DNA from: a virus
Direction: 5' to 3' (one strand)
Length of the DNA stretch: 43,666 bases
IMG/VR virus record: IMGVR_UViG_3300022150_000104
Span: 1 to 43,666 of that record
Positions within the stretch are counted from its first letter, which is position 1, and each line of letters begins with the position of its first letter. This document shows positions 474 through 21,949 of the stretch, piece by piece. The notes below the pieces were generated by a model. The model saw nothing but the letters and a program-made list of their open reading frames with translations, did not search any database and was not told the DNA's origin. A program made the translations under genes and the position numbers.

Positions 474-1516
474 GTCGACACCCCGTTCCATTCGACGCCA
501 TCGAGGAGGCGACCGGCGCGGGCTTTGCCGATGCGGCGCATGACGTGGAAGCGCTCACCGTGAAACCCGCGACCCCCTTCAAGGTTTATCCATCGCGTCT
601 TCCCTCGATCTTTGTAGTCGTTGCTATAATCGGCTCTCCAATCTGGATCATCTTGCTCACGGTCAACGGCAACCGCCCACTCGCCCCACTGCTTAAACAG
701 GAATGGCGTACCGGCTGCGGCACACTGATCGCGCAGGCTGCGGATCCAGTCGGGATGCGTCGGGCGGGCGTGATGGCCGCTCTCGCCGCCAACAATCACC
801 CAGTTGATCCAATTGCACAGGTTTACATTCAGGCGACCGTTCACAGGGCGGGCCTGTGTCGGCCAATCAACCTTTTCGGGCGGCATCCAGAATTTTCCAC
901 GCAGCGCATCTATGTAAGAATGCGCTAGGCCAGATGGATCCGGAATCGCTGTCAGATCAACCGGCCCCAGCAGCGGTTCCATCGACAAGCCAATCCACGG
1001 GATCTTGAGACGCGATCCCAATTCTAGCAGCTTCGGAATGTCCCGGTCAGCTTCGGCTTGATTGACGACTGTGATCATCAGACCGATGTGCTTAGGCCAG
1101 CCGCCCATCTGCTTCGATGCCCATGCAGGCGGGATCATCTGGAACACGTTTCCGATGCGTTTGGTCAGCAGCTGGGGCCGGGTGTTGGTCGCGGATGTCA
1201 GTTCCTTGAACGCTTCTGCCCGCCAAGCCGGGTCAACCGCGTTGTCGAAGATGTCCGAGAGGCTGGAACAGAATACGCGCGGCCAGCGGCCATGCTTGGC
1301 GTTAAACTGTTCGGCCTCTCGGTTGATCTTGCGCAGCTTGGCGATGCCGCCTTTGACATAGCGGCGTGGTGCGCCCGGACCCCAGTGTTTGCCGCCTGTG
1401 AACCGCGTATCACGCGCCTCGGCATAGCAGTGGTCGCAGCCTGGGCCGACCTTCTGGCAGCCTTCCCAAAAATTAACGGTGTAGTCCGTCCATTCGATTT
1501 TGGTTTGCTGGGTCAT
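470..1516 (-). CDS. DUF5131 / phage Gp37-Gp68 family protein (radical-SAM-like cysteine motif)
   Basis: A 348-residue protein of the phage Gp37/Gp68 family. The N-terminus has the family signature N-x-WEGCQKVGPGCDHCYAE, with Cys20, Cys27 and Cys30 (C-x6-C-x2-C), resembling the iron-sulfur binding loop of radical SAM and spore-photoproduct-lyase-like enzymes. Further family-like phrases are VFCSSLSDIFD, LLTKRI, IPWIGLSMEPLLGPVDL and WVIVGGESGHHARP, which read like the strands of a TIM barrel. The biochemical role is not established. It overlaps the C5 methyltransferase gene by 4 bases, so a link to DNA modification is possible but unproven. Length is near normal for the family. Confidence 0.85.
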   Translation of the reverse strand: MTQQTKIEWTDYTVNFWEGCQKVGPGCDHCYAEARDTRFTGGKHWGPGAPRRYVKGGIAKLRKINREAEQFNAKHGRWPRVFCSSLSDIFDNAVDPAWRAEAFKELTSATNTRPQLLTKRIGNVFQMIPPAWASKQMGGWPKHIGLMITVVNQAEADRDIPKLLELGSRLKIPWIGLSMEPLLGPVDLTAIPDPSGLAHSYIDALRGKFWMPPEKVDWPTQARPVNGRLNVNLCNWINWVIVGGESGHHARPTHPDWIRSLRDQCAAAGTPFLFKQWGEWAVAVDREQDDPDWRADYSNDYKDRGKTRWINLEGGRGFHGERFHVMRRIGKARAGRLLDGVEWNGVST

Positions 1517-3585
1517 GCCTTCGCCTCACTTTCATGATTGTGCTGATCGGCCTGAACCGCCAGATGCCCGCAATTCGCGCTGACAAGCGCCTCTGCCAGA
1601 TCCGGACAAACGGAGTTGCCACAGCAGCTGACCTGCACCGACTTCGAAAACGGCAACCATGCCCATTCATCGTCAAACTGCTGCCAGACGCCCTCAATCA
1701 CGTAGTCTTTGGGAAAACCCTGGGCGTTAAACAATTCACGCGGGGTCAGCATCCGCATCCCAATGTCCACAACGACGTAAGATGCGCCGTCGATTTCGAT
1801 GGTGACAAACTCGCGTGCATCCCAAGCGTCATGGGCGCGCATGAAGTCTGCAACCTCGCGGGCACGCTCAACATACTCCTCTGTGAAGGGCGGGGCTTTA
1901 AGCTCAGCCTCGACATGCCCGAAGCGGTCGTTGACGGTGACAGTGTGGCAGGGTTCATCCATAGTCGCGCCCGTGCCCGCCCCGTAGTATTTGGCGAAGA
2001 ACGCTGCGATTGGCGTCTGGTGGCTACCGGATCCTGCAATGGTGGAAATCGGCTTGGATACATCATGACCGCAGTTTGCATCCATGCGGGGCCCGCCGTT
2101 CTGTTGTGCCAGGTAGACGGCAGCAGTGGCGTGTTTGATGCCTCCCGCCACTACAGTTCCCAAGGGCTTTCCTATATCTAGGGAACGAGGTGCTTGCCCC
2201 GGTGCCTCACCGTATCCAGCCTGAATAAGGGTTGGGATGATTACCGCGTTCTGATCTTTGCTGCTCGCGCAGATGGTGTGGTGCGGATCACTGACAGAGC
2301 GATTTGCGCCACCCTGTTGAGCGTATGTCAGCACCGGGGCCACCACGGCATGATGCCCGCCGCCAGCGGTGACAGTCTTGAGCGGGCGATCTGGTTTGCC
2401 TTCGCCGCCCGCAGTGTTTGACGTGTAGAGGTGCGAGAGGATCGGGGCGATTAGAGCGTGCCGGTTTTCGACGGTCACAGTGCGCAAAGGCTCTTGCAGA
2501 TCCGCAACGCGCTTTGAACGACCGTCGGTGTGTCCGTAGAAGGTGGCCAAGGCCGGGGCGATCATCCCAAGGGGGGCAGCGCCGCCTGGGCGCTTGATGA
2601 AGCTGTTCGCCGTGATGGTCGACATCGGTTCACGCATATCCTGACCCGTCGCGCCACCGTTGAACCGCGTGATCGACGGGGCCACGACTGCCTTTTCACC
2701 GCGCTTCGCGCCCGTGATTGTGCGGAAAGGCTCCCCAGCGTCTTCGTTGCGGCCGCCGTGCGTGAGGTTGACGATGAAGGGCCGGTCAGCGTCGATCACA
2801 TATCGTTTCATCCCGCGCGCAACGCGGGCCATCGTGTTGTTGGCCAAGGGACGCACAGCCGTCAGCCCGAGCTTTGTCTTGATCTGCTCCTTGGTATCAA
2901 AGATGGACGGACAGGGATGCGACCAGTCGATGCACTCCGCCGCAGTGCGCCAGGGCAACCGATGACCGCGCTTTACGTGCCAGCTATCCGGTTCCCCATG
3001 CGTGGGCTTGGGCCAAACGATCGGTCGACCGTCCCGGCGCGCAATCATGAAGAACCGCTTCCGGATGGTTGGTGCGCCATAGTCGCAGGCACGAAGCTCG
3101 CGCCACTGGACCTTGTAGCCAGCCTTGCGCAGCCGCTTTACCCAAAGCTCGAAGGTCTGGCCTTCCAGTTCCTTGATAGGTTGCCCCTCGTTGCCGATAG
3201 GCCCCCAGCCGCGAAACTCCTCTACGTTCTCCATCAGGATCACGTCAGGGCGCACTTGCTCAGCCCACCGCACAACGATCCATGCCAGGTCGCGGATATT
3301 GCGATCGCGGGGCTTGCCGCCCTTGGCCTTCGAGAAGTGTTTGCAGTCAGGGCTTGCCCAAAGCAGTCCAACCGGACGGCCAGCCGCCACCTCAACAGGG
3401 TCAACCTCCCAGATATCGTTCGAGAGGTGCAGCGTTTCAGGGTGGTTGGCAGCGTGAAGGGCTAGGGCGGCAGCATTGTGGTTGATCGCCACGTCCGGAC
3501 TGCGCCCAAGGGCATGCTCAATGCCAGTGGAAGCGCCGCCGCCACCAGCAAAGCTGTCGATGATCAGGGGAAGCGCAGCATTCAT
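1513..3585 (-). CDS. DNA (cytosine-5) methyltransferase with a repeat-array insert
   Basis: A 690-residue C5 methyltransferase. Motif I FAGGGG is at residues 12-17, motif IV ASPDCKHFS has the catalytic Cys81 (in the SPDC form rather than PPCQ), motif VI ENV is at 119-121, motif VIII RKRFFMIARR is at 175-184, motif IX RMLTPRELFNAQGFP is at 611-625 and motif X GNSVCPDLAEAL is at 656-667. All catalytic elements are present. Between motifs VIII and IX, about residues 268-562, lie roughly eight degenerate repeats of 33-40 residues centred on [EDK]-P-x-x-T-[IV]-T. They occupy the place of the usual target recognition domain. No restriction enzyme gene is adjacent, so this is an orphan enzyme, probably protecting phage DNA from host restriction. 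Confidence 0.93.
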   Translation of the reverse strand: MNAALPLIIDSFAGGGGASTGIEHALGRSPDVAINHNAAALALHAANHPETLHLSNDIWEVDPVEVAAGRPVGLLWASPDCKHFSKAKGGKPRDRNIRDLAWIVVRWAEQVRPDVILMENVEEFRGWGPIGNEGQPIKELEGQTFELWVKRLRKAGYKVQWRELRACDYGAPTIRKRFFMIARRDGRPIVWPKPTHGEPDSWHVKRGHRLPWRTAAECIDWSHPCPSIFDTKEQIKTKLGLTAVRPLANNTMARVARGMKRYVIDADRPFIVNLTHGGRNEDAGEPFRTITGAKRGEKAVVAPSITRFNGGATGQDMREPMSTITANSFIKRPGGAAPLGMIAPALATFYGHTDGRSKRVADLQEPLRTVTVENRHALIAPILSHLYTSNTAGGEGKPDRPLKTVTAGGGHHAVVAPVLTYAQQGGANRSVSDPHHTICASSKDQNAVIIPTLIQAGYGEAPGQAPRSLDIGKPLGTVVAGGIKHATAAVYLAQQNGGPRMDANCGHDVSKPISTIAGSGSHQTPIAAFFAKYYGAGTGATMDEPCHTVTVNDRFGHVEAELKAPPFTEEYVERAREVADFMRAHDAWDAREFVTIEIDGASYVVVDIGMRMLTPRELFNAQGFPKDYVIEGVWQQFDDEWAWLPFSKSVQVSCCGNSVCPDLAEALVSANCGHLAVQADQHNHESEAKA

Positions 3586-4688
3586 GAGCCTGACATCTCC
3601 CGCTGATTCCGCTCCTCAATCTCGCGACGTATCTCCTCTTCCTGCTCGGGAGTAAGGCGAGGGGCATCGTCAGATGGCAGCCCAAAAGGGTCATCGCTCA
3701 GATCATTTTCCGCTTCAGCATCGGCCTCCTTTGCCATGCGCTGACAATCATCGATGATGGTTTTGACCAGCGGCCGGACATCAGGGTTCGCCTGCCACCA
3801 TTCGGTGAAAGCCTTGGTCCCTTTCCGAGCTTCGGCGCGGGCAGCATCAAGGGTCTCTTTGTCTTTCTGGCGGTCACCTTGGCTCATGGCCCAGTCAGCC
3901 ATTGCGCGGCCCGTGTCCTTCCCCATGGGGCGGCGAACGTCCAGCAGGCCTTTGAATTGGTCTGCCACCTTGATCTGATGAACGGGGCAGCCCGGGGCCG
4001 ATGGATCGAGAATGATCATCGTGGTCATTTCGAACATCAGATCGCCGTCGCTGGCTGGATCCCAAGGTACATCTGCGCGCCGCGTCTTGGTCGCGCGGGC
4101 GTTGGTTTCTTTCCAGCCGGTCTTTGCCGACTTTTCCTGCATCACGGGCTTCGCTCTGGTGCAGATGATGATGTTGCACTTGGCGCGCACAATGCGGTCG
4201 ATCAGGCGGCGGTAACGTGGTTTGACCTCGGCCCAGGCAAGCTGGCTGCGCTGGTTCTTCTTGCTGTCGTCTCCACCCGTTAGGCGGTCCAACACTTGGG
4301 CCTGCAGGTCGAGGACACCGCCAACGCCTTCCCAAGCGTGGCTAAAGCTGTCGAGGATCACAACCGGCAGCTTTGCCTCTTCTGCAGCATCAATCACCTG
4401 AATCCAGCGTTCGGGGCCGAAGCCGACCATATTGCCGTCATCGTCGACGGCTTTCATGTCGTAGTGAACCATCTGAGGGAACGCGGCCTTGTAGTGCAGG
4501 GCGCGACGATTTTCGGTATCGACATACCCAATAGGGGCATCGGCCTTGCCGGTGACGCGCTCAGCGATGCCGACAGCCATCAGCAGTGCGGTGTAGGTCT
4601 TGCCGGTGCCTGAGCCGCCTGACAGGCCGATTGCCAGCGTCAGCGGGTCGTTAAGTTCGGAAACGGGGGTGAATCTGATCATTCCCAT
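3582..4688 (-). CDS. Sak4-type RecA-like ATPase (AAA_24), phage recombination
   Basis: A 368-residue P-loop ATPase. Walker A is GGSGTGKT (residues 24-31) and the Walker B-like strand LPVVILDSFS is at 107-116, followed by a segment with PRYRRLIDRIVRAKCNIIICTRAK, typical of Sak4/AAA_24 phage proteins. These are RecA-core ATPases that promote single-strand annealing with phage nucleases and SSB. The ATG at 4688 is preferred because a GGAG lies about 10 bases upstream; the reading frame extends further up, but that part overlaps the upstream nuclease gene in another frame. The C-terminus is acidic and charged. It lies directly downstream of a RecE-like nuclease, forming a recombination pair. Confidence 0.85.
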   Translation of the reverse strand: MGMIRFTPVSELNDPLTLAIGLSGGSGTGKTYTALLMAVGIAERVTGKADAPIGYVDTENRRALHYKAAFPQMVHYDMKAVDDDGNMVGFGPERWIQVIDAAEEAKLPVVILDSFSHAWEGVGGVLDLQAQVLDRLTGGDDSKKNQRSQLAWAEVKPRYRRLIDRIVRAKCNIIICTRAKPVMQEKSAKTGWKETNARATKTRRADVPWDPASDGDLMFEMTTMIILDPSAPGCPVHQIKVADQFKGLLDVRRPMGKDTGRAMADWAMSQGDRQKDKETLDAARAEARKGTKAFTEWWQANPDVRPLVKTIIDDCQRMAKEADAEAENDLSDDPFGLPSDDAPRLTPEQEEEIRREIEERNQREMSGS

Positions 4689-4692
4689 CGGG

Positions 4693-5655
4693 TCATTCTC
4701 CTGCGTGTCTGAAGGGTTCGGGGGATTGCCACTGCCGCGCCATCTCAAGCACGTCTTTGCCGGTGCGGCTCTTGTGGTCGAGTTCGACGCTTTCGCGCTC
4801 AAGCCAACGGGTGTGGAAGAATTCGGGGAGTTCGATGCGGTGAACGCCCAAGGGGTAGCCCGGCCAATCGTCAACGCTGAGGCAGTTTGCCCACATTGCG
4901 CGGGCCCGAGCGATCTTCTTGCGGGCCATCATCATGGAGTCTGGCCCGACCTCGATCACTGCAACCTCGTAAGGGGCGGACTTCTCTTGGAAGATGAAGC
5001 GGAACAGCCGATCTTCGCCAGTCGCCGCTTTCCATGTGTCGAGATAGTGCGCAGCCTGAACGTCGTAGCCGTAGTTCATCACTGCCCGCATGGCGGCGTC
5101 CGGGCTGGCGTCGGTGGTGGTTTTGAAGTCGTAAAGGGGTTGGCGCGCATCGCCGGGGGCGTTGTCGACCATGGCGCGGCACCATACGCCGTCAAGCTGG
5201 GCGAGGGCGGCCACCTCAGAGTGAGCCGGATCCAGATCGATATTTAGTGCGGTCAGCTTTTCCGAGATTTTGGCCCGCATGGCCTCGATCTGCAAAACCT
5301 CCTCGGATTTCAGCGGGGTCAGGCCAGCTTCGCGCGCAGCCTCGATGAATTCCTTTGCAGCCTTGGTTGATGCCGCCCCATTGCTGGCGAGGATATCGTC
5401 AGGGATGGCGCAGAAATCAGAGCCAGCGCCGAGGGTGGCCCGGTGGGCAGCGCGACCAATGTCGAACGTCTTGCTATCCTTTGGCTCCCAGTCAGGGTTT
5501 AGGCGGGGTGAGGCCGTCCAAGCATGCAGCGGCGACTGCGCAAGCATGATCTTGGCGATGGTGCTGGACAGGGACGGGGCTGGGGCCGGATCGGCGTGAT
5601 AGACGTCAGCGTCAAGTTGATGGATGCCGGATTGGAGTGGGGTTTGGGGGCTCAT
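4693..5655 (-). CDS. RecE/exodeoxyribonuclease VIII-like PD-(D/E)XK nuclease (DUF3799-type)
   Basis: A 320-residue protein with the phage RecE/DUF3799 plan. It opens with YHADPAPAPSLSSTIAK and a basic/aromatic start, then FDIGRAAHRATL (the G-x-A-x-H motif), then DGVWCRAMVDNA, then the catalytic core LYDFKTTTDASPDAA (D-x-K), then QAAHYLDTWK, the conserved QxxxY segment. In related phages this exonuclease resects double-stranded ends to make single strands for annealing. It lies 4 bases upstream of the Sak4 ATPase gene and overlaps the coiled-coil gene by 4 bases. The family assignment is firm; directionality and cofactor use cannot be read from sequence. Confidence 0.85.
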   Translation of the reverse strand: MSPQTPLQSGIHQLDADVYHADPAPAPSLSSTIAKIMLAQSPLHAWTASPRLNPDWEPKDSKTFDIGRAAHRATLGAGSDFCAIPDDILASNGAASTKAAKEFIEAAREAGLTPLKSEEVLQIEAMRAKISEKLTALNIDLDPAHSEVAALAQLDGVWCRAMVDNAPGDARQPLYDFKTTTDASPDAAMRAVMNYGYDVQAAHYLDTWKAATGEDRLFRFIFQEKSAPYEVAVIEVGPDSMMMARKKIARARAMWANCLSVDDWPGYPLGVHRIELPEFFHTRWLERESVELDHKSRTGKDVLEMARQWQSPEPFRHAGE

Positions 5656-6692
5656 ATCCGAACCTCCACGTGACCGATCTGGCCAGTCATGATGGCATCC
5701 GCGATCAGCGCAGCTGTGGCCTCATCTGTGAAGCCGTTCATGCTGGTTGCGATATCGTCGCGGATCCGTTTGCGGTGCGCCTGATCGGCCTCCCGCTCGG
5801 CGCGAGCTTCATTGGCTTGGCGCTGCTCCTCGGCGATCCGGTCGCGTTCACGTTGGGCGGCGGCTTCCTCGCGGGCTTTGGCCTCCTCGAGCTCGCGGGC
5901 ATGTCGTTCCTGCGCCTCCTGCTCACGGCGTGCGGCGTCTGCCTTCTCGGTTTCGATCCGGCGCGTCTCGGCTTGCTCCGCCTCGATCCGGTCGGCCTCA
6001 GCCTTCTCAGCGGTCAGACGTTCGGCTTCACGGCGCGCGGCTTCCTCGGCATCCTTGCGGGCGCGTTCTTCGGCTTCGGCCCGCAGGCGGGTCAGCTCTG
6101 CAGCATCCGCCTCGCGCTGTTCAGCTGCGGTAAGCAGACTGCGATAGTGGCTGAGCGCCTGTTCGTGCTTTGCCGCGGCAATCGGCTGGAATTCCTCCCA
6201 CTCACCACCGACCGACATATTCTCAATGTCGCGCAGAAGGTGGCGCACCTGTTCAGCAGTCGAACCTGCATCTGCGCGGTTCAGATTGAAATGATCCAGC
6301 GCCTGCTTGTGGTTTGAAGTCCGCGCTTCCTCAGCAGCATCCCACTCCTCTGCAGGTTTTTTGATCTCATCACGCAGCGCGGCCAGCCGGTCCTCCGCCA
6401 GCTTTCGACCGGCGTTCACCGCGGCAATCTCTTTGCGCTGCGCCTCCGTCAGAGCCTTGCCTTGGCGATCAAGCTCAGCCTTCTTGCTGCTTACCGTATT
6501 GGCCAGAGAGCGCAGAGCTTTGCGGCCCTTGGCTGTGCTGGGATCGTGGGTCAGCGCCTCGGCTCGGGCAGCCGCTTCCAGCTTCGCAATGATCGGGTCC
6601 AGCGCGTTCTCGCCCTTGAACAGGCCGATCAGGTCAGTCTGTGAAGGCAGGGCGAGCGCAGTGCCTGTTTCCATGGGGGATTGGTCGTTCAT
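5652..6692 (-). CDS. Coiled-coil phage protein of the recombination operon
   Basis: A 346-residue protein. Residues about 40-130 are helical and basic, and residues about 190-310 form a very long charged coiled coil rich in Ala, Glu, Arg and Lys (repeated EAEERARKDAEEAARREAE-type heptads). The C-terminal 45 residues (DDIATSMNGFTDEATAALI) look globular. Comparable proteins occur next to phage exonuclease and SSAP genes, but no enzymatic motif is visible and I cannot name a family. A structural or scaffolding role in the recombination complex, or a Gam-like end-binding role, would fit the context but is inference. It overlaps both neighbours by 4 bases. Confidence 0.75.
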   Translation of the reverse strand: MNDQSPMETGTALALPSQTDLIGLFKGENALDPIIAKLEAAARAEALTHDPSTAKGRKALRSLANTVSSKKAELDRQGKALTEAQRKEIAAVNAGRKLAEDRLAALRDEIKKPAEEWDAAEEARTSNHKQALDHFNLNRADAGSTAEQVRHLLRDIENMSVGGEWEEFQPIAAAKHEQALSHYRSLLTAAEQREADAAELTRLRAEAEERARKDAEEAARREAERLTAEKAEADRIEAEQAETRRIETEKADAARREQEAQERHARELEEAKAREEAAAQRERDRIAEEQRQANEARAEREADQAHRKRIRDDIATSMNGFTDEATAALIADAIMTGQIGHVEVRI

Positions 6693-6871
6693 GCAGTGGT
6701 CCTTTCGGGAAGATGCAGGGGAGCGGGCTGATCAATCAGCTGGTCAGTTTCGCCACACATGCGGCGCAAAACACTTCGGTCTTCAGGTGCTACGTTGGGA
6801 TCGCGCATCGCGGCCTTGCAGACGGCGTAGATGTCGCTGTTGAGCTTGCGCAGGGCAGTTGCGTAATCCAT
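6689..6871 (-). CDS. Small hypothetical protein of the early-left operon
   Basis: A 60-residue protein starting MDYATALRKLNSDIYAVC, with a helical N-terminus and a polar C-terminus (RRMCGETDQLIDQPAP). No family is recognised. The ATG at 6871 overlaps the TGA of the upstream small membrane protein gene (TGATG), and its own stop overlaps the start of the coiled-coil gene, so it is translationally coupled on both sides, which supports that it is real. A GTG two codons upstream is an alternative start. Confidence 0.6.
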   Translation of the reverse strand: MDYATALRKLNSDIYAVCKAAMRDPNVAPEDRSVLRRMCGETDQLIDQPAPLHLPERTTA

Positions 6872-7059
6872 CAGCACGCCCCGCAGTTTGTGGCGCGATT
6901 CAGTTGGCGCGCGATTTCATTATTCGCTCCGGCGGTTGCCAGATGCGCAAAGGCAAGCGCGGCAAAGAACGTAACAACCAAGATGATTTTACGCCGTGCC
7001 GCGCGGCGGCGGGCTTGCGCTTTTGTCGGCGGGTGGCCCCATGTGCTGCAGTGGTTCAT
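6871..7059 (-). CDS. Small membrane protein of the early-left operon
   Basis: A 62-residue protein: a basic N-terminal part (PTKAQARRRAARRKI), one predicted membrane helix (IILVVTFFAALAFAHLATAG), then a short polar tail ending CGAC. The positive residues before the helix suggest an N-in orientation. The ATG at 7059 has a GAGGAG ribosome site about 9 bases upstream and overlaps the TGA of the preceding small gene. No family is recognised. Small membrane proteins in this operon position can act in superinfection exclusion or membrane targeting, but nothing in the sequence selects a role. Confidence 0.6.
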   Translation of the reverse strand: MNHCSTWGHPPTKAQARRRAARRKIILVVTFFAALAFAHLATAGANNEIARQLNRATNCGAC

Positions 7060-7205
7060 TGCGGGGTCTCCTCGTGGAATTCTGCGCTGTGTTCGGCATC
7101 GCGGATGGCCTTGCGCTCTATCCGGTCGGCCTCGAATTTCAGGTCGTTCATGTATTGGGCATCGGTCTTGATGCGGCGAAGACTGGCGAGGATGCGGCGG
7201 ATCAC
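7056..7205 (-). CDS. Very small hypothetical protein with GTG start
   Basis: A 49-residue protein starting at a GTG whose last two bases form part of the TGA of the Cys-rich gene (GTGA). A GGGAGG ribosome-binding site lies a few bases upstream, and the stop overlaps the ATG of the next gene. It is basic then acidic, wholly helical in appearance (RRILASLRRIKTDAQYM, then LKFEADRIERKAIRDAEH), and could form one coiled-coil hairpin. No family is recognised. Tight coupling on both sides is the main evidence. An internal ATG at residue 19 is an alternative start. Confidence 0.6.
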   Translation of the reverse strand: MIRRILASLRRIKTDAQYMNDLKFEADRIERKAIRDAEHSAEFHEETPQ

Positions 7206-7564
7206 AGCTCGGCCTCCCGCTCGGCGCGCTCATTGTCGTCACGAGTCTGCGCTGCTTGCTGGGCCGGGCTCACGGTCTGGCACTTTTCACACCAATGATC
7301 GCCGTCGTTGTCGGTCGCAGCATCGTCGAGCGGCAGCGCCACATCGCAACCCGCGCATTGAACGTGCGCGTCTGTACAGCTGTTGCAACAAGGGCCGAGA
7401 TACCGGGCCTTCATCGCGTCGTTGTGGGTGTCCCAGTATCCGGACACGTCCATGTCGGAGGGGAACAGGGTGTCGTCATTGCAGCAAGCGCAGGTGCAGC
7501 AGCCGTCGAGCGGCAGCATGTGGCGCGAGATCACGGCTTTGCTGATGGTGTGGTGAATGCTCAT
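7202..7564 (-). CDS. Cys-rich, probably zinc-binding early-left protein
   Basis: A 120-residue protein, the first gene of the leftward operon. It has three clustered cysteine pairs: GCCTCACC near residues 21-28, GPCCNSC followed by CAGC near 57-74, and WCEKC near 92-96. It also has several His and Asp residues, and resembles a pair of zinc ribbons or a treble-clef fold. No family name can be assigned. A GGAGAG ribosome site precedes the ATG. The C-terminal 20 residues are charged and helical. Being closest to pL it would be expressed first after induction, a usual place for host-takeover or antitermination factors; this role is inference. Confidence 0.7.
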   Translation of the reverse strand: MSIHHTISKAVISRHMLPLDGCCTCACCNDDTLFPSDMDVSGYWDTHNDAMKARYLGPCCNSCTDAHVQCAGCDVALPLDDAATDNDGDHWCEKCQTVSPAQQAAQTRDDNERAEREAEL

Positions 7565-7920: not shown

Positions 7921-8322
7921 TCACAATCCCAAGCCGTTTCTGACACAATCACGCACTTTCTCTAAAACATCTTCATCAAGCACCCGTACGTCATAGACCC
8001 TTTGGCTATGGTCCCAATGCGAAAAGAGCAGCCGGAGACGCCGAAATGCGACCGTCAAAACCATGTCTCCCTTAACCCACATTTCGGGGCTATCATAAGG
8101 GTGTGGGAGTGCCGGATCCAACCTAATTTTAATGTTGTGAGGATGGGTTCCGCGTGGAGGTGACGTACTTAGCGGAACAATTGTGCAGAGATTTTGGCGA
8201 CCAGGTATTGGTGGTGATAGAACGATACACGGCCTACGCTTTACCATTTCAGGTGGTCGGAAACCCTCATTTAAATCAACCCTAACAATGGTCCCGGGCT
8301 GGGGATGGCTTATGACTGTCAC
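7921..8322 (-). CDS. PemK/MazF-like toxin or growth inhibitor, co-transcribed with the repressor
   Basis: A 133-residue protein of the PemK/MazF (CcdB-like barrel) family. It starts QPGTIVRVDLNEGF, then KRRPCIVLSPP, then CTIVPLSTSPP, then a later WVKGDMVLTVAFRRL, the strand order of MazF-type RNases. MazF enzymes cleave mRNA at short sequences and are normally neutralised by a small antitoxin encoded just upstream. Here the upstream partner is the S24 phage repressor, whose stop overlaps this ATG (ATGA), and no MazE-like gene is present. It may be a toxin controlled by the repressor, an RNase used in phage development, or a family member that has lost toxicity. The terminator hairpins downstream close the two-gene transcript. 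Confidence 0.8.
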   Translation of the reverse strand: MTVISHPQPGTIVRVDLNEGFRPPEMVKRRPCIVLSPPIPGRQNLCTIVPLSTSPPRGTHPHNIKIRLDPALPHPYDSPEMWVKGDMVLTVAFRRLRLLFSHWDHSQRVYDVRVLDEDVLEKVRDCVRNGLGL

Positions 8323-8954
8323 ACCCGATGCGCCAGATCAGCAGGCAGGTGCAGCCGGACGCGGGCGGCCCATTTCAGTTTCACATCGTGCTGATTGTCT
8401 GCGCCTGGGTTAAGTGAAATCAGATTAAACAAACCCGGTGCCGACCCTGCGCGCACCTGCTTTACCCAGCCCATCCCGCTCACGTCTTCGCAGACACATA
8501 TCCGTCCGATCTCGTCAGAAGGCACGCCGTCGGCCGTAGCGCGCGTGTAGAAGAGCAAGTCGCCTGCAGAGTACGTGGGCTGCATGCTGTCGCCGACCAC
8601 CTCGACGGCAACGACACCCTTCGGCGAAAGAATTGACGGACACTCGACCTGAGGGCCGTCGCCTTTTTCGTACGCATCAAAAACAGGTACCATAGCGCCA
8701 GCGCCTACTTGCCCGGCAATGGCCACCGTGGGCCGAGGCTTGGGAGCCTCGCCAACAATCTCCGAAACATCAACCTCGAGAACCTCGGCGATCTTAACAA
8801 GGTTTGCGAGCGTCGGGTTTTTGGTTTTCCGTAAAATAATGTCTCTGACGCCAGTAGCGCTCATGCCAGCTGCAAGCGCAACTGCACGATTATTGGTGCC
8901 GCGCTGCTTTACGAGCGCGTCGATCCGATCTGCTATCAATTGGCCAATCTCCAT
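8319..8954 (-). CDS. Phage repressor, HTH plus S24 peptidase (CI/LexA-like)
   Basis: A 211-residue repressor. Residues 5-66 form an HTH_3 DNA-binding domain (VALAAGMSATGVRDIILRK covers the recognition helix). Residues about 78-205 form an S24 self-cleaving domain with VVGDSMQPTYSAGDLL, the nucleophile Ser123, and the general base Lys165 in WVKQVRAG. An Ala-Gly bond near residues 80-87 is the likely self-cleavage site after RecA activation. It should hold the lysogenic state by binding the five 16-base operators at 7609-7653 and 8955-9028. The operator at 8955-8970 starts one base upstream of its own ATG, so autoregulation is likely. It is the first gene of a bicistron with the MazF-like toxin. 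Confidence 0.95.
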   Translation of the reverse strand: MEIGQLIADRIDALVKQRGTNNRAVALAAGMSATGVRDIILRKTKNPTLANLVKIAEVLEVDVSEIVGEAPKPRPTVAIAGQVGAGAMVPVFDAYEKGDGPQVECPSILSPKGVVAVEVVGDSMQPTYSAGDLLFYTRATADGVPSDEIGRICVCEDVSGMGWVKQVRAGSAPGLFNLISLNPGADNQHDVKLKWAARVRLHLPADLAHRV

Positions 8955-10442: not shown

Positions 10443-10681
10443 GCACCCGAGCACACGACTTCATGGTCTGGCGCGCCGGCAACTCCGTTCAATGGGACTG
10501 CACCGTTGCCGAGATCGCTGATGAGACGGGGATTTCGATCCCCAAAGTCCGATCGATCTTGAAGCGCCGCGGCTGGGTTTGCCTCGCCGATAACCGAAAC
10601 ACGGACCCGTATGCCTATCTGCATCTGGGCAACCAGCATGGTCATAGCCAGGCGCTGCGCAATCTGGGAGTTGATGTATGA
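10439..10681 (+). CDS. Small winged-helix-like protein
   Basis: An 80-residue protein with an HTH-like segment CTVAEIADETGISIPKVRSI followed by LKRRGWVCLADN, as in small winged-helix regulators of phage early operons. The C-terminal 30 residues are polar with histidines (HLGNQHGHSQ). It overlaps both neighbours by 4 bases. A DNA-binding role is likely; the target is unknown. Confidence 0.65.
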   Translation: MSTRAHDFMVWRAGNSVQWDCTVAEIADETGISIPKVRSILKRRGWVCLADNRNTDPYAYLHLGNQHGHSQALRNLGVDV

Positions 10682-11508
10682 CTTTTCGCACAATCGATGT
10701 AGCGGGATTTGATGCCTGTCATCTTGCCGAGCAGCCCGCGCCGATGCTGCAATGGGTGCCAATCGACAACCTAGTGATCGACGGCGCATATCAGCGCGAA
10801 CTTGGACGGCAGAACCTGACAGCAATCCGCAAGATCGCGTCAGATTTCCGCTGGTCAAGGTTTGCTCCAGTTCTGGTAGCACCCGTCGACGGTGGCAGGT
10901 TCGCGATCATCGACGGTCAGCACCGAACCCATGCCGCGAAGATTTGTGGTATCAAGTCGGTGCCGGCCATGATCGTGCAAATCGACCCCGCAGAACAGGC
11001 GAGCGCGTTTGCGTTCGTCAACTCGGCGACCACCAAGATCACGCCGCATCACATCTATAAAGCGGGGCTTGCGGCAAAAGAGCCATGGGCTGTGAACATG
11101 AAGGCGGCCGTTGAGGATGGCGGGTGTGATCTGCGCATGTCGAACGCTTCCACCGCGCACAAAAAGCCGGGGCAAATTTACTGTATCGGCTTGATCAGGG
11201 ATATCGAAAAGCGCGGATATCTCAGGGCGTTAACGGCAGTTCTTAAAGGGCTGGTTGAATACGACACTTCCGGCCGCGTGCCGCTCTACTCTGACTTCAT
11301 CATCAGGCCAATGGTCTTCGCATATGCTGAAAGCCAGGATTTTGAAAGGCTCGATGTCGCTGCCTTCTTGCGCGAAAACGACCCCTTCAAGGTCATCAAC
11401 TTTGTCGATCGGGCAATGGCTGACGAGCAGCTGCAGGGGTCGCGGCAGGTCAACTACCGTAATGCGTTCCGGGTGCAATTTCAGCAATTTCTAAAGGTGA
11501 GGTCATGA
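10678..11508 (+). CDS. ParB/sulfiredoxin-fold protein
   Basis: A 276-residue protein whose first 110 residues follow the ParB N-terminal (ParB/Srx) fold: VPIDNLVIDGAYQREL, then RFAPVLVAPVDGGRFAIIDG, then the signature DGQHRTHAAKICGIKSVPAM. The rest is helical and is not the HTH or centromere-binding part of plasmid ParB. Phages carry such proteins as DNA-modification enzymes, nucleases or CTP-using regulators, and the sequence does not decide between these. It follows the adenine methyltransferase and a winged-helix gene with 4-base overlaps, so a modification-related role is one possibility. Confidence 0.75.
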   Translation: MTFRTIDVAGFDACHLAEQPAPMLQWVPIDNLVIDGAYQRELGRQNLTAIRKIASDFRWSRFAPVLVAPVDGGRFAIIDGQHRTHAAKICGIKSVPAMIVQIDPAEQASAFAFVNSATTKITPHHIYKAGLAAKEPWAVNMKAAVEDGGCDLRMSNASTAHKKPGQIYCIGLIRDIEKRGYLRALTAVLKGLVEYDTSGRVPLYSDFIIRPMVFAYAESQDFERLDVAAFLRENDPFKVINFVDRAMADEQLQGSRQVNYRNAFRVQFQQFLKVRS

Positions 11509-15578: not shown

Positions 15579-15601
15579 ATTGCGAAGCAAGTTATGTTCA
15601 G

Positions 15602-15631
15602 AGCCGCCGGGGAAACCTGCGCGGCTTTTTT
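15602..15631 (+). terminator. Terminator before the late operon (tR'-like)
   Basis: A 6-bp perfect stem AGCCGC/GCGGCT with a 13-base loop is followed by a run of T to 15631. It ends early-right transcription and would also stop RNA from the candidate late promoter after about 40-45 bases unless antiterminated. Confidence 0.65.
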
Positions 15632-15767
15632 CGTTTCCCACACCCGCCTCCTTCTGCCGAACCGCACCACCCCCGCAGCGGTCAGCCTTCATTGCGTCAG
15701 TCAACGCATCGGCGGTTGGATTTCAATTGGTAAGAGCGAAATGAAGGGCGGGCGAGAGGAGAACAGT

Positions 15768-16253
15768 ATGTCTGCGCGTGAATTGACACCAAAGCAAGAA
15801 GCCTTCGCGCTCGCATATTTCGAGACAGGTAATGCGGCCGAAGCTTACCGGCGGGCATATGATGTCGCTGAGGGGGCGAAGGATCACTGGCTTTATGTCG
15901 AGGCCAGCCAGCTTCTCGACCACCCTAACATCGCCCTGAGGCTGGAACAGCTAGAAGCGCAGGCCGCAAGCCTGACTATCTACACCCGCCATAAGGCAAT
16001 GGAGGAACTAGAGGAGGCGCGGCAAGAGGCAAAGAAGAACGCCCAAGCCGCCGCAATGGTCGGGGCCACGTCTGCCAAGATCAAACTGTTGGGCCTCGAC
16101 AAACCAAGTCGTGTTGAGGTGACAAGCCCTGACGGCAGCATGACGCCAAATTCCGCCATTACTCTCACCAACCTGTCGGACGAGGAGCTTGCACAGCTTG
16201 AACGCCTTACCGACAAAACGCGAAATTCAGAGGGAGTGGGCGAAGCGGAATAG
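15768..16253 (+). CDS. terS: Terminase small subunit
   Basis: A 161-residue protein with the Terminase_2-type start: LTPKQEAFALAYFETGNAAE, then AYRRAYD, the HTH that recognises the packaging site, followed by helices (HPNIALRLEQLEAQAAS) that oligomerise the ring. The C-terminus has TNLSDEELAQLERLTDKTRN, which would contact the large subunit. The ATG at 15768 is chosen for the GAGGAG about 8 bases upstream; the frame is open further upstream through the terminator. The 3' end overlaps the large subunit gene. Confidence 0.9.
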   Translation: MSARELTPKQEAFALAYFETGNAAEAYRRAYDVAEGAKDHWLYVEASQLLDHPNIALRLEQLEAQAASLTIYTRHKAMEELEEARQEAKKNAQAAAMVGATSAKIKLLGLDKPSRVEVTSPDGSMTPNSAITLTNLSDEELAQLERLTDKTRNSEGVGEAE

Positions 16254-17655
16254 CCTGGGGTTCGCCCGGTTTTTCTTCCCCGCCCGCGAGGGCATGGATC
16301 TGATCGAAGGCCCGCACCATCGAGTGATCGGGGCCACGCTGGACCGAGTGCTAGCTGGAGAGATTCCCCGCCTGATCATCACCCTGCCGCCAGGTTACAC
16401 TAAGACCGAAATGGCGGTGGTCAATTTCATCGCCCGCGGCTTTGCGATCAACCCGGCATCGCGCTTCATCCATGCCACATTTTCGGACGATCTGGCCCGC
16501 GAGAACAGCGACAAGATCAAAAGCTTGATCGAGTTGCCAGAGTTTGCAGAGATTCAACCCGTCACGATCAAGACAGACAGCCGCGCCAAGGATCGGTGGA
16601 AGACGAACGAGGGCGGCGGGATGCTGGCGAAAGCTGCAGGTGGGCCGATCACAGGTTTCCGCGCCGGATACATGGACAAAACGCGGTTCACCGGTGCGCT
16701 GGTGATCGATGACCCTCTAAAACCGGACGACGCATTTAGCCCGACGAAGCGGGCGGCGGTCAACAAGAGGGCAACCAACACGTTTCGCAGTCGGATTGCA
16801 CATGAGGATGTTCCGATCGTTGTGATCATGCAGCGCCTTCATGGCGACGACTTCGCAGGTCATTTGCTGACAGGCGGGACGGGGGAGATCTGGGATCATC
16901 TGGATCTACCGGTGATGATTGAGCGTGGGGTGGAATACCCAAAGGAATGGACGCATGGCAGGCCAGTGCCGCACGATCTTCCGGATGGTCCGCTGTGGGC
17001 TCACAAGCACTCGGCGGCGCAGATCGAGGTCCTGAAGCACGACGCCTATACCTTTGCCAGTCAGTACATGCAGCGGCCCGTCAGCATCGAGGGCGCGTTG
17101 TTCGATATGGCTGGCTTCGAATGGTGGACGGAACTGCCTGAATTCGAGTGGACATGTATGTTCGCCGACACAGCAATGAAAACCGGCGAGCGGAACGATT
17201 TCTCGGTGATACAGCATTGGGGAAAAGCAAAGCGCGGCGTCTATTTGATCGACCAGATACGCGGCAAGTGGGAAGCCCCGGACCTTGAGCGTAACACGTT
17301 GGCGTTTTGGACCAAGGTGAAGGGTGAGGGGTATCGCCCCAGAAATCTGCGAGTTGAGGATAAGGCGTCAGGTACGGGGCTGATCCAGTCTATCCGCAGG
17401 CAAGGCGGTATACCCATCTCAGGCATTAAGCGCGAGAAAGACAAATACACACGCGGCTTGGATACAGCGCCTTGGATCGTCAACGGTCAAGTTTGGCTGC
17501 CCAAGGATGCGTCATTCACGCCATCACTGCGACACGAACTACAGATTTTTGACGGCATGGGTACTGGTCACGATGACCAGGTTGATCCGTTAATGGACGC
17601 GATTTCCGAAATGCTAAACAAAAACACCTTCAACCTTGCGGGGATGGCATCTTGA
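16198..17655 (+). CDS. terL: Terminase large subunit (packaging ATPase and nuclease)
   Basis: A large terminase of about 485 residues. ATPase: IITLPPGYTKTEMAV is an altered Walker A, then RFIHATFSDDLARENSDKI (adenine/motif II region), then LVIDDPLKPDDAF (Walker B D-D-P) and VVIMQRLHGDDFAG (coupling motif). Nuclease: MFADTAMKTGERNDFSV and LRVEDKASGTGL carry the first metal-binding acids, and DDQVDPLMDAI is the last acidic motif. The start is probably TTG at 16198, with GAGGAG about 10 bases upstream, though TTG at 16189 is possible; both overlap the small subunit gene. It moves DNA into the capsid and cuts the concatemer. Confidence 0.95.
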   Translation: MNALPTKREIQREWAKRNSLGFARFFFPAREGMDLIEGPHHRVIGATLDRVLAGEIPRLIITLPPGYTKTEMAVVNFIARGFAINPASRFIHATFSDDLARENSDKIKSLIELPEFAEIQPVTIKTDSRAKDRWKTNEGGGMLAKAAGGPITGFRAGYMDKTRFTGALVIDDPLKPDDAFSPTKRAAVNKRATNTFRSRIAHEDVPIVVIMQRLHGDDFAGHLLTGGTGEIWDHLDLPVMIERGVEYPKEWTHGRPVPHDLPDGPLWAHKHSAAQIEVLKHDAYTFASQYMQRPVSIEGALFDMAGFEWWTELPEFEWTCMFADTAMKTGERNDFSVIQHWGKAKRGVYLIDQIRGKWEAPDLERNTLAFWTKVKGEGYRPRNLRVEDKASGTGLIQSIRRQGGIPISGIKREKDKYTRGLDTAPWIVNGQVWLPKDASFTPSLRHELQIFDGMGTGHDDQVDPLMDAISEMLNKNTFNLAGMAS

Positions 17656-19409
17656 GCATTTTTACACCCATCGCCGATGGCCTGCAAAGCCTTGCCACAC
17701 GACTGGGGACATCCAGCGACAAGGCCGCGACGGTTAGCTACGCGGTCAATATGCTGGATGATCAGCAGCTCGAAGCCGCATTCCGCACGTCTTGGATCAT
17801 GCGCAAGGTTGTCACCATCCCTGCGATGGACGCTGTACGAAAATGGCGCGAGTGGAGCGGTGAGGGTGCAAAGGAAATCGAGGGGCTGGAAGACGCTTTT
17901 CGGGTCCGCTCCAAGATAAACGAAGCAAAGTGGAAAGCCCGGCTATACGGCGGCGCAGCAATTCTGATCGGGACAGGACGGGAGGATCTGAACCAACCCC
18001 TCGACCCAAGCAAAACCCGCAAGGGTGATCTGCGCTATCTCACGGTTATCACGCGCAAGGACATTATCGCCGGACTGGCGGACATCGACCCTCGCAGCCC
18101 GCGCTATGGCTTACCCATCGACTATCAGTTCAGCACCAACCGCGGCGAAGTTTTGCGCGTTCATCCCAGCCGCCTTGTCGAATTTCACGGCGAACCGTTG
18201 CCTAGCCAATTCATCGCGGGATCGGGCCAATATGGCTGGGGTGACAGCGTTCTGCAGTCGGTTTACACGGCCTGCCAACACCTCGACATGACGATGGCTA
18301 ACGTCGCTTCGCTGGTGTTCGACGCCAAGACTGACATTATCAAGATTGAGGGGCTTTCCGACAATATCACGGACCCGAAATACGAAGAAATGCTGCTCAA
18401 GCGGTTCGCCACGGCGCGTCTTCTCAAGGGCAACAACGGCACGCTGATCCTCGACAAGGACGAGGAGTACGAAAGCAAGTCATTCTCGTTCAGCGGACTG
18501 TCTGACATCGCAGACCGCTTCATGCAGGTCGCATCCGGGGCGGCTGATATCCCGATGACACGCCTGCTAGGTACATCACCGGGCGGGCTGAACAGCACCG
18601 GCGAAAGCGATCTGAATAACTATTACGATCGAGTGCAGGCTATGCAGACGCTGGAAATCGAACCGGCGATGAGCGTTCTCGATGAGGTGCTGATCCGGTC
18701 TGCGATTGGTGACTGGCCAGCGAAGACGACATACGAGTGGCGTCCGCTTAAGCAGATGACCGAAACCCAGGTCAGCGAAATCCGCAATAAGGACGCGGAC
18801 ACGCTGAGCAAGCTGGCAACGGCTGCGATCTACGGTGACGACGAAATCGCCGCCGCTGGTGCGCAGATGTTCCGCGAGACGGGCATCGACGCGCTGACGA
18901 TTGCCGATGACGGCACGGGCGATGATGACGATGGTATCGTCACGACAGATGCAGCACCCCGGACCCTGTATGTTCGTAGAGACGTTCTGAACGGTGCTGA
19001 AATCATTCGCTGGGCAAAGGCGCAGGGATTCAAGACCACACTGCCAGCGTCAGACTTGCACGTCACCATCGCTTTTAGCCGCGCAGATATTGACTGGATG
19101 GATGTTGGCGAAAGCTGGCAGTCGAAAGTCGAGGTTGCACCCAGCGGCGCACGCATCATGGAGCAGTTTGGCAAGGCGCGCGTGGTGCTGTTCAACAGTG
19201 ACGAACTTAAGTGGCGTCACGAGCGCATCAAAGAAGCTGGCGCAAGTTGGGACCATCCTGAGTATCAGCCCCACATCACGATCAGCTACGACCCAGAGGC
19301 TCCCGACATTTCGGACATCGAGCCATACCAAGGCCCGATCATTCTCGGCCCTGAGGTATTCCAAGAGGTCAAAGAAGATTGGGCAGACAATATCAAGGAA
19401 ATCGAATGA
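17652..19409 (+). CDS. Portal protein (DUF1073) fused to an Acb1-like anti-CBASS phosphoesterase
   Basis: A 585-residue two-part protein from a TTG overlapping the terminase TGA. Residues 1 to about 400 follow the DUF1073/phage portal family (INEAKWKARLYGGAAILIG, then DIPMTRLLGTSPGGLNSTGE), the dodecameric DNA gate. After an Asp-rich linker (about 415-430), residues 436-585 form a separate domain starting TLYVRRDVLNGAEIIRWAK. It has LHVTIAFS (His470, Thr472) and PHITISYD (His541, Thr543): two HxT motifs 71 residues apart, the signature of 2H phosphoesterases and of Acb1, which cleaves CBASS cyclic nucleotides in T4. Candidate extra active-site residues are Tyr440, Glu572 and Trp577. Fold match is strong; the anti-CBASS activity is inferred. 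Confidence 0.92.
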   Translation: MSIFTPIADGLQSLATRLGTSSDKAATVSYAVNMLDDQQLEAAFRTSWIMRKVVTIPAMDAVRKWREWSGEGAKEIEGLEDAFRVRSKINEAKWKARLYGGAAILIGTGREDLNQPLDPSKTRKGDLRYLTVITRKDIIAGLADIDPRSPRYGLPIDYQFSTNRGEVLRVHPSRLVEFHGEPLPSQFIAGSGQYGWGDSVLQSVYTACQHLDMTMANVASLVFDAKTDIIKIEGLSDNITDPKYEEMLLKRFATARLLKGNNGTLILDKDEEYESKSFSFSGLSDIADRFMQVASGAADIPMTRLLGTSPGGLNSTGESDLNNYYDRVQAMQTLEIEPAMSVLDEVLIRSAIGDWPAKTTYEWRPLKQMTETQVSEIRNKDADTLSKLATAAIYGDDEIAAAGAQMFRETGIDALTIADDGTGDDDDGIVTTDAAPRTLYVRRDVLNGAEIIRWAKAQGFKTTLPASDLHVTIAFSRADIDWMDVGESWQSKVEVAPSGARIMEQFGKARVVLFNSDELKWRHERIKEAGASWDHPEYQPHITISYDPEAPDISDIEPYQGPIILGPEVFQEVKEDWADNIKEIE

Positions 19410-20524
19410 CCGAAATTCGCTTCACGGATGCCGTCGAAATCGGCAAGCCGCGCAAAACCCGTGATGGATACCTGACGGCCCGCGTAAAAGCGGCGCGCAC
19501 GGGTATTCAGGATTACATGGGGTCTGAATTGGGCAAGCCCGACCTGGACCGCGTACGCGTTTACCGGCCCGCTGATGAGGTGTTCAATCTGGATAGCATG
19601 GGCAGCTTCAAAGGTAAGCCTATCACTGACGGACACCCGAAAGAGCGGGTCACGGCAGATAATCACACGGAACTGTCACGTGGTCACATTGCTGGCGTTG
19701 CGCGCGATGGTGAGGCCGTGGCGCTGGATGTGGCGATCACAGACGGCAGCACCGTGGCCTCCATCGAGGCAGGCGGACCGCGCGAGCTGTCTGTTGGCTA
19801 TGTGACCAAACTGGACTGGACCCCCGGCATCGCGCCGGATGGCCAAGCCTATGACACTGTGCAGCGTTCAATTTTCGTGGACCACCTCGCCATCGTTCCA
19901 AACGGACGCGCTGGCCAAGAATTTCGCATCGGAGACGCTGCGGATTACTGGGGGGCATCGCCCCTCACCACCCCCACGAGCAACCCCAAGGAGGACACTA
20001 TGTCTGATGCTCTTATCTCGGTGGTGCTTGGCGATAAGGCGGTCAACGTGCCCGCCGCCCAAGCACCCGCAATCGAAGCGTTCAAGGACGCCTCAGCAAA
20101 GACCCTGGCTGATACCATCAACACCAAGGACGCTGAAATCGCTGGCCTTAAAAAGCAGATCGAAACCAAGGACGGCGAAATCAAGGCCAAAGACAAAGCC
20201 TTGGCCGATGCCACCAGCCCTGCCGCGTTGCAGGATGCCGCCAAGTCGTATGCGAAGACGACCGAAGCGGGCAAGAAGGCGGGTCTTTCCGAGGATGAGA
20301 TGTCCAAGATGGATGACGCCGCAATCCGCCGTGCCGTTGTTGCCAAGCACCTCGGCGATGCCGAAGCGAAAGCCATGACCGACGCGGCAATCGACGGCGC
20401 TTTTGCTTTTGCCGCCAAATCGGCACCAACCGTCACCAATGACCACATCCTCAAGGACGGCATCCGCACGCAAGTTTCGGATGGCGCATGGGGTTCGGTC
20501 GTCACCATGAAAAAGGAGGCCTGA
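19406..20524 (+). CDS. Prohead protease with scaffold domain (DUF2213)
   Basis: A 372-residue protein. Residues 1-190 follow the DUF2213 prohead protease plan: FTDAVEIGKPRKTRDGYLTA, then GKPITDGHPKERVTADNH, then RGHIAGVARDGEAVALDVAI, then GGPRELSVGYVTKLDW and FVDHLAIVPNGRAG. The His and Ser in DGHP and RELSVGY are candidate catalytic residues. Residues 199-372 form a scaffold: a helical coiled coil (NTKDAEIAGLKKQIETKDG) and a C-terminal tail. An in-frame ATG at 20000 with its own strong ribosome site would make the scaffold alone. The ATG at 19406 overlaps the portal TGA. Confidence 0.9.
   Translation: MTEIRFTDAVEIGKPRKTRDGYLTARVKAARTGIQDYMGSELGKPDLDRVRVYRPADEVFNLDSMGSFKGKPITDGHPKERVTADNHTELSRGHIAGVARDGEAVALDVAITDGSTVASIEAGGPRELSVGYVTKLDWTPGIAPDGQAYDTVQRSIFVDHLAIVPNGRAGQEFRIGDAADYWGASPLTTPTSNPKEDTMSDALISVVLGDKAVNVPAAQAPAIEAFKDASAKTLADTINTKDAEIAGLKKQIETKDGEIKAKDKALADATSPAALQDAAKSYAKTTEAGKKAGLSEDEMSKMDDAAIRRAVVAKHLGDAEAKAMTDAAIDGAFAFAAKSAPTVTNDHILKDGIRTQVSDGAWGSVVTMKKEA
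20000..20524 (+). CDS. Nested internal-start scaffold protein
   Basis: An in-frame 174-residue product read from the ATG at residue 199 of the protease gene. AAGGAGG lies about 5 bases before it, a stronger ribosome site than that of the protease itself. It starts MSDALISVVLGDKAVNVPAA, then a coiled coil, then the C-terminal tail shared with the long form. Lambda C/Nu3 use the same layout to make many scaffold copies per protease. The internal start is read directly from sequence; use in vivo is inferred. Confidence 0.75.
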   Translation: MSDALISVVLGDKAVNVPAAQAPAIEAFKDASAKTLADTINTKDAEIAGLKKQIETKDGEIKAKDKALADATSPAALQDAAKSYAKTTEAGKKAGLSEDEMSKMDDAAIRRAVVAKHLGDAEAKAMTDAAIDGAFAFAAKSAPTVTNDHILKDGIRTQVSDGAWGSVVTMKKEA

Positions 20525-20527
20525 TCC

Positions 20528-20908
20528 ATGGATATTGTCACAGAAGGCACCCGCAAGGCTGAGTTCCTTGTCTCTGAGGCCAATGACTGGCGTTCGCGCG
20601 ATGCTGTCATCGTGACCGTCCCGGCCAATACCACGCTGGCATCCGGCACGATCCTTGGCAAGATAACCGCAACCGGCAAGTTCACTCGCCAGGACACGGC
20701 CGCCGTCGATGGATCACAAAGCCATGCGGCTTTGCTGTTTGAGCCGCTGGTCAACAAGACTGCTGCCGCCGTCGATTATGACGTCACTGCTGTTGCGCGT
20801 GATGCTGAGGTCAACGGTGCCGATCTGACATATGAGGCCAGCGCTACCGCTGGTGAAATCACCGCCGCGAACGCCGCTCTGGCCGCGCTCGGCATCATTG
20901 TCCGCTGA
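20528..20908 (+). CDS. Head decoration protein
   Basis: A 126-residue protein of the lambda gpD-like head decoration family: YEA-rich, with TVPANTTLASGTILGKITAT, then ALLFEPLVNKTAAAVDYDVT, then ALAALGIIVR at the end. These trimers stabilise the expanded capsid. It lies between the scaffold and capsid genes as in lambda-like heads. An AAGGAGG sits at the end of the preceding gene, about 9 bases before the ATG. Confidence 0.85.
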   Translation: MDIVTEGTRKAEFLVSEANDWRSRDAVIVTVPANTTLASGTILGKITATGKFTRQDTAAVDGSQSHAALLFEPLVNKTAAAVDYDVTAVARDAEVNGADLTYEASATAGEITAANAALAALGIIVR

Positions 20909-20926: not shown

Positions 20927-21949
20927 ATGGCTACCATGGACATTTTCAACAGTTCGGCCTTCAGCACGACATCTCTGTCGGGCATGGTCGAAAAAATGGA
21001 TTACCAGCCGAGCCTTTTGGGTTCGCTGGGCATCTTCGAACCGACGCCGGTGCGCACCCGCAATATCTTTGTTGATCGCATTGACGGTGGGCTGACGCTC
21101 ATTCCGACATCCGCAGATGGCGCTCCGCCTGATGTTCTGGACGGCGAAGATCGCGATGCGGTTTCGCTCAAAACCACTCGCCTTGCCAAGCGGTTCACGC
21201 TTTACGCGCACGAACTGGACGGCATTCGTGCCTTTGGTTCCGAAACCGAGCTGATGGCTGTTCAGCGTGAATATGGCCGTCGCATGGCCCGCATTCGTGC
21301 GGACATGGAACTGACCCACGAGTTTCACCGCCTGGGCGCTTTGCAGGGCATCCTGCTGGACGCTGATGGATCGACTGTCATCTATGACTACTCGACCCAG
21401 TTTAACGAGAGCATCCCGGCTGCAACCAGCTTTGAATTGGATGTGACCACGACTGATGTGCATGGCGTCTGCAAAGACATCTCCCGCGGTATGGTGCGCT
21501 CGGGACGTGGATCTTTCACACCCGGCACCACCATCCATGCCTTGGCTGGCGACGACTTCTATGACGCTCTGATCTCGCATCCGAACGTCGAAAAGTTCTA
21601 CCTCCAGCAGGTTGCAGCCAATGCACTGCGCGAGGCACAAGGCGCGATCTTCGAGAGCTTCCGCGTTGGTGGCATCACGTTCCACAACTACCGCGGCACT
21701 GACGATAATTCGACCGTCGCCATTCCTACGGCAGAGGCGAAGTTCTTCCCGGTCGGTGCGCGTGATGTGTTCAAGGTTGCTCAGGCACCGCTTGAAACGC
21801 TGGAATATGTTGGCACTCCCGGCCAGTCCGTCTACGCGATGAACGTGCCGGATCGTGACCGGAACATGTGGACCAAGGGCGAGTTGTACAGCTATCCGCT
21901 CTATATCTGCCAGCAACCGCGCACCCTGCGCAAAGGTACACTGACATGA
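20927..21949 (+). CDS. Major capsid protein (lambda gpE-like)
   Basis: A 340-residue coat protein of the phage capsid E family: DIFNSSAFSTTSLSGMVEKM, RNIFVDRIDGGLTLIPTSAD, LAKRFTLYAHELDGIRAFGS and EFHRLGALQGILLDADGS, ending in PLYICQQPRTLRKG. The length and the order decoration-capsid match lambda-type heads. AAAGGAGGT is placed about 10 bases before the ATG, consistent with very high expression. Its stop overlaps the next start. Confidence 0.95.
   Translation: MATMDIFNSSAFSTTSLSGMVEKMDYQPSLLGSLGIFEPTPVRTRNIFVDRIDGGLTLIPTSADGAPPDVLDGEDRDAVSLKTTRLAKRFTLYAHELDGIRAFGSETELMAVQREYGRRMARIRADMELTHEFHRLGALQGILLDADGSTVIYDYSTQFNESIPAATSFELDVTTTDVHGVCKDISRGMVRSGRGSFTPGTTIHALAGDDFYDALISHPNVEKFYLQQVAANALREAQGAIFESFRVGGITFHNYRGTDDNSTVAIPTAEAKFFPVGARDVFKVAQAPLETLEYVGTPGQSVYAMNVPDRDRNMWTKGELYSYPLYICQQPRTLRKGTLT

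Follow-up and report, generated by a model that had tools for sequence, protein, structure and literature searches.

The stretch of DNA analysed here (hereafter the window) comprises all 43,666 nucleotides of the virus record IMGVR_UViG_3300022150_000104 and carries a block of head genes in the standard order TerS, TerL, portal, DUF2213 protease, decoration protein and major capsid protein. The gene for TerS (15594-16253) lies directly in this block and is followed by the genes encoding the terminase large subunit TerL (16189..17655, plus strand), a portal-Acb1 fusion protein of 585 aa (17652..19409, plus strand), a DUF2213 head maturation protease (19379..20524, plus strand), the decoration protein (20528-20908) and the major capsid protein (20927-21949). 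The fusion gene, delimited by its open reading frame and its Pfam matches, has a TTG start that overlaps the stop of TerL, and its end is overlapped by the protease gene. The portal core (17652..18887, plus strand) matches PF06381 (DUF1073, phage portal) at residues 38-386 in a profile search (E=2.4e-102, 342.7 bits against a cut-off of 33.8), with the portal profile reaching residue 412. It is followed by a short, variable, acidic linker of residues about 413-432 (18888..18947, plus strand), the segment where identity among relatives drops and then jumps, which is about 25 aa long in the window portal and about 46-56 aa in several relatives. The remainder of the protein is occupied by an Acb1-type 2H phosphoesterase domain, residues 437-579 (18960..19388, plus strand). 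The open reading frame encoding a portal together with an Acb1 domain is confirmed as real.

Regarding the host, the nearest of the relatives that lie in named genomes is a Sulfitobacter sp. EhC04 prophage, with 91% identity. The window, from a phage of marine type, therefore probably belongs to a phage infecting Rhodobacterales. A gene for a CI-like S24 repressor (8319-8954, minus strand) fits a temperate phage. Elsewhere in the window, one block on the minus strand (470-5655) encodes a DUF5131 protein, a C5 cytosine methyltransferase of 690 aa whose middle region is long, an AAA ATPase and a DUF3799 (PDDEXK-like) nuclease, and a ParB-like protein (PHROG 1033, E=7e-18) is encoded at 10678-11508 (plus strand).

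The initial annotation had assigned the C-terminus of the portal to an Acb1-type domain on the basis of its motifs, and this assignment is upheld by profile, motif and fold. In a profile search residues 437-579 matched PF23474 (Acb1) with E=1.1e-44 and 152.1 bits against a cut-off of 27; since the scores of both PF23474 and PF06381 far exceed their cut-offs, the Acb1 match is not due to chance. Profiles of related 2H enzymes remained below their thresholds, with LigT (PF02834) at 23.0 bits against 23.3 and 2_5_RNA_ligase2 (PF13563) at 22.4 against 27, so that the Acb1 profile outscores LigT by about 130 bits. PADLOC gave no match. An AlphaFold2 model of the domain, built from 80 fused relatives, had a mean pLDDT of 93.1; a model of the whole portal-Acb1 protein from nine sequences reached a pLDDT of 37, and no claim about fold is drawn from it. 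With the domain model as a Foldseek query, the best matches were the solved structures of Erwinia phage FBB1 Acb1, 7t26 and 7t27 (E=4e-9 and 1.5e-8, TM 0.67/0.75), followed by another phage Acb1 and then by E. coli LigT. The structure prediction proposed as a check in that annotation thus places the predicted fold nearest to solved Acb1, ahead of LigT.

The motifs themselves are present as had been described, with HVT at residues 470-472 (19059..19067, plus strand) and HIT at residues 541-543 (19272..19280, plus strand), 71 residues apart, and LYVRRD at the N-terminal start of the domain, beginning at residue 439. The nearly equal spacing given there for T4 Acb1 is also borne out, H44/T46 and H113/T115 being 69 residues apart in that enzyme (PMC9117128). 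When the domain is aligned with the T4-type Acb1 of phage RB14, both HxT motifs coincide. The catalytic tetrad that Hobbs et al. reported (PMC9117128), T4 H44, T46, H113 and T115, corresponds to H470, T472, H541 and T543 in the window portal. In the same study T4 Acb1 and nine further homologues were tested and all were active (PMC9117128). Residues were counted over 125 aligned domains, 122 fused and three separate: the position of H44 is conserved in 124, T46 and H113 in all 125, and T115 is Thr in 98 and Ser in 27, while the equivalent of Tyr12 is found in 124. Among 120 distinct fused domains, 119 retain HxT...Hx[TS]; the sole exception (L022) has its catalytic His changed to Arg (DDLRVTI) and is a possible natural dead enzyme. 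Estimates of dN/dS were saturated at long distance and are of qualitative use only.

The substrate-contact residues are more variable. Three of the T4 stacking residues Y12, W74, F107 and W147 are matched in the window portal by Y440, H535 and W577, and W74 is without a clear partner in the sequence alignment. The alignment places the C-terminal lid region Q571-W577 (19362..19382, plus strand) opposite T4 E141-W147, so that the position of E141, which contacts adenine N6 in T4 Acb1, is Gln571 in the window portal, adjoined by Glu572. Across the fused family this position is E, Q or A, and the residue is a specificity determinant rather than a feature of membership. The lid Trp, W577 in the window portal, is present in 86 of the 125 aligned domains and absent in 28, owing to shorter C-termini. 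Because of Gln571 and the lack of a clear W74, the substrate range may differ from that of T4 Acb1 and is not to be assumed. The same two features, together with the weak LigT and 2_5_RNA_ligase2 matches and the naming of PHROG 755 as RNA ligase, would be in keeping with a 2H phosphoesterase that heals RNA 2',3'-cyclic phosphate ends or acts on some other nucleotide instead of CBASS signals. This reading is nevertheless unlikely, given the lead of the Acb1 profile over a LigT match just below its cut-off, the Acb1 structures as nearest fold, the near-universal Tyr12 equivalent and frequent lid Trp, and the scanned part of the window, in which no RNA ligase or kinase was found.

Comparison among portals of the same family shows that the domain is an accessory, non-fixed part of the portal that has been gained, lost and swapped. 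Portal-centred sampling gave 67 loci with Acb1 and 92 complete loci without it. Many of the Acb1-free portals terminate in an acidic tail that is short and variable, and none of the 92 complete ones carries another domain in the same slot, with the exception of L270, whose tail is frameshifted. When 161 portals (108 carrying the domain and 53 lacking it) are placed on a tree, at least 23 changes between presence and absence are needed, against 41-50 when labels are shuffled, and portal cores that are 97% identical differ in having or lacking the domain. As far as the linker, the portal of Rhizobium phage RHph_N28_2 is 64-100% identical, mostly above 77%, to that of RHph_TM3_3_3 when the DNA is compared window by window; RHph_N28_2 has no Acb1 domain on its portal and none elsewhere in the phage. 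At positions 5783-7228 of the RHph_N28_2 locus (L012) a natural loss is seen of the Acb1 domain and of most of the downstream 673-aa gene of RHph_TM3_3_3 (L120). The fusion partner is an essential structural protein, and the domain might accordingly be thought a structural extension of the portal, for example in DNA spooling or scaffold contact, for which catalysis is not needed; the retention of catalytic residues in nearly all distinct domains, the many close portals (RHph_N28_2 included) that do without it and its failure to appear in an ordered state in the Pseudanabaena phage Pam3 structure make this most improbable.

Regarding its movement, the sequence comparisons show that the domain passes as a unit from one portal to another. 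Trees built with FastTree for the domain and for the portal disagree (9 of 75 splits in common; AU test, p=0.0003), and the pairwise identities of the portal correlate at 0.50 with those of the downstream DUF2213 gene (permutation 0/500) and at 0.13 with those of Acb1 (29/500). In a DNA scan, the pairs L088/L110 and L032/L044 share about 41-75% identity over the portal and 79-96% over Acb1, with low identity just after it, and the pairs L051/L070 and L024/L076 show the reverse pattern, portal and protease being conserved and Acb1 diverged. The window portal itself, compared with that of an Oceaniglobus prophage, has amino-acid identities of 25-66% over residues 1-432 and 75-83% over residues 433-576, the DUF2213 proteins of the two being 42% identical. 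Phage mosaicism adds further breakpoints, but pairs of the L088/L110 and L051/L070 type require exchange of the domain itself. It may be that the C-terminus of this portal family is a slot reserved for exchanging a single anti-defence enzyme, which phages would repeatedly replace, discard and reacquire while the rest of the portal stays stable; destruction of the signal would thereby be coupled to the assembly of capsids, a step at which CBASS can be triggered. This is put forward tentatively and is somewhat less likely to be right than wrong.

Portals stay with the particle, so that delivery of the enzyme into the next cell would need proteolytic release. The suggestion in the initial annotation that the fusion perhaps delivers immune evasion is on this account unsupported as stated, since in the related portal of E217 the C-terminal side projects into the head interior (PMC10329688). 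In that structure residues 97-528 of the 765 of portal gp19 were modelled and the last 237 residues are likewise unaccounted for (PMC10329688). For the Pam3 portal, 442 of the 621 residues of the chain are modelled in 8hds, so the linker and enzyme are either disordered or flexibly tethered, or missing or removed in the mature particle; the Acb1 domain model did not retrieve 8hds among the matches listed. A place for the enzyme on every virion, as put forward in the initial annotation, is accordingly no more than possible. A release of this kind is proposed in PMC9503650: the domain would be packed in the head, the maturation protease would detach it from the portal, and it would enter the next cell together with the DNA, giving protection from the very start of infection. 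An inward-facing C-terminal side, a flexible and variable linker, an adjoining protease gene and a domain unmodelled in the Pam3 virion are all compatible with such a route; as the linker sequence is not conserved and disorder by itself accounts for the missing density, however, we consider it rather unlikely.

The domain is also found as a separate gene. In Synechococcus phage Yong-M3-232 (L015, 158-2144) the portal and Acb1 are encoded by separate overlapping genes, split via a duplicated linker segment and a frameshift, and in its sister phage Ssp-JY40 (L126) they are fused; the split could be real or an assembly error. In Edwardsiella phage vB_EpM_ZHS (L014, 2116-2715) the gene ZHS_4, situated just upstream of the portal genes, bears the annotation 'prohead protease' but encodes a separate Acb1 (PF23474, E=6.5e-24) preceded by 50 aa at the N-terminus. 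Because of these separate acb1 genes, the covalent tie may not be essential. They could also be taken to mean that the fusion is incidental, with free Acb1 made from an internal translation start and the portal tail merely its carrier, but an in-frame start with a Shine-Dalgarno match of at least 5 nt occurs in the linker of only 14 of 122 fusions, and the window linker has neither a ribosome-binding site nor a conserved internal start. Across relatives the linker is too variable to align. Production of free Acb1 by this means was rejected and is considered very unlikely. Among BFVD entries, 2H/Acb1 domains occur in phage proteins of 883 to 1134 aa (A0A6J5LTH6, A0A649VPI5, A0A9E7E548 and A0A0K0N719) from Gordonia phages and an uncultured phage, one of them named a structural protein, which suggests that 2H enzymes have been fused to further large proteins of virion-like kind.

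Our preferred reading is that the gene product is a 12-copy portal, the ring through which the phage packs its DNA, and that a flexible linker joins its C-terminus to an active cyclic-oligonucleotide phosphodiesterase of the Acb1 type. This enzyme probably cleaves CBASS signals at a late stage, while capsids are being assembled. The fused protein would be made late, alongside the prohead protease, and would thus be found both in the cytoplasm and on procapsids at a time when capsid assembly can trigger CBASS. The enzyme would then degrade the signal, a cyclic di- or trinucleotide, in time to prevent killing of the cell by the effector. The portal itself does not need the domain, an accessory and presumably anti-defence module that portals have lost, regained and exchanged many times. 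The comparisons establish that portal and enzyme are fused, that the fold and catalytic residues are those of Acb1, and that the domain is gained, lost and exchanged, while catalysis, substrate, timing and the anti-CBASS role are inferred. According to a review (PMC12409349), a CBASS sensor has a phage prohead protease among its interaction partners. Of the 23 hosts that carry prophages of this kind, 5 had SMODS, the one CBASS synthase family searched, compared with 35 of 396 order-mates (p=0.057), an enrichment that is suggestive at most; the closest relative's Sulfitobacter host was one in which SMODS was not found. If this reading holds, an immune-evasion enzyme has been placed on an essential virion machine, and the tie of anti-CBASS activity to the time and place of assembly becomes testable with the natural 97%-identical portal pairs with and without the domain. 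For annotation, such genes are portals first and not free Acb1 or 'RNA ligase'.

Fusions of this type have been deposited before. The best solved relative of the portal core is the Pam3 portal (8hds_A; two matching stretches, E=1.6e-143; record H88, 40% identity over 99%), which like the window portal combines a portal core and a C-terminal Acb1 domain in one chain of 621 aa. Its sequence is diverged, its linker has 56 aa compared with about 25 aa in the window, and its own Acb1 domain is absent from the deposited 442-residue model. Full-length fusions, at a coverage of the query of 80% or more, were found in 33 records of phages that infect Pseudomonas, Rhizobium, Sinorhizobium, Aminobacter and cyanobacteria. 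Those of Pseudomonas phages phiPSA1/psageB2, Rhizobium phages RHEph04/06 and Synechococcus phage Ssp-JY39 are 43-46% identical to the window portal and are annotated merely as portal, head or DUF1073 protein.

With LigT and the 2'-5' RNA ligase-like cyclic phosphodiesterases the domain has the 2H superfamily fold in common, with a weaker profile and fold match. The Acb1 enzymes of T4 and FBB1 (7t26/7t27) share with it the 2H fold, the HxT/HxT tetrad, the N-terminal Tyr and the C-terminal Trp lid, but are small stand-alone enzymes with E141, aligned with Gln571 in the window portal, and W74, which has no clear counterpart there. Iyer et al. 2022 (PMC9503650) describes portal- and MuF-fused 2H domains, the same kind of fusion, and proposes for the portal-fused domains the same purpose, packaging to counter nucleotide-based immune signalling. 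Of the fusion biology put forward in the initial annotation, the Acb1-type domain therefore stands, and packaging to evade immunity as a novel idea does not; given Pam3, the 33 phage records and that study, neither the fusion nor the basic anti-immunity idea is new. An account of gain and loss or exchange of the 2H domain was not found in the available part of that paper, nor a description of exchange of the Acb1 domain between portals in a limited search of the literature. To these known systems the present analysis adds the retention of the motifs, the accessory nature of the domain, its exchange as a unit and its absence from the Pam3 model.
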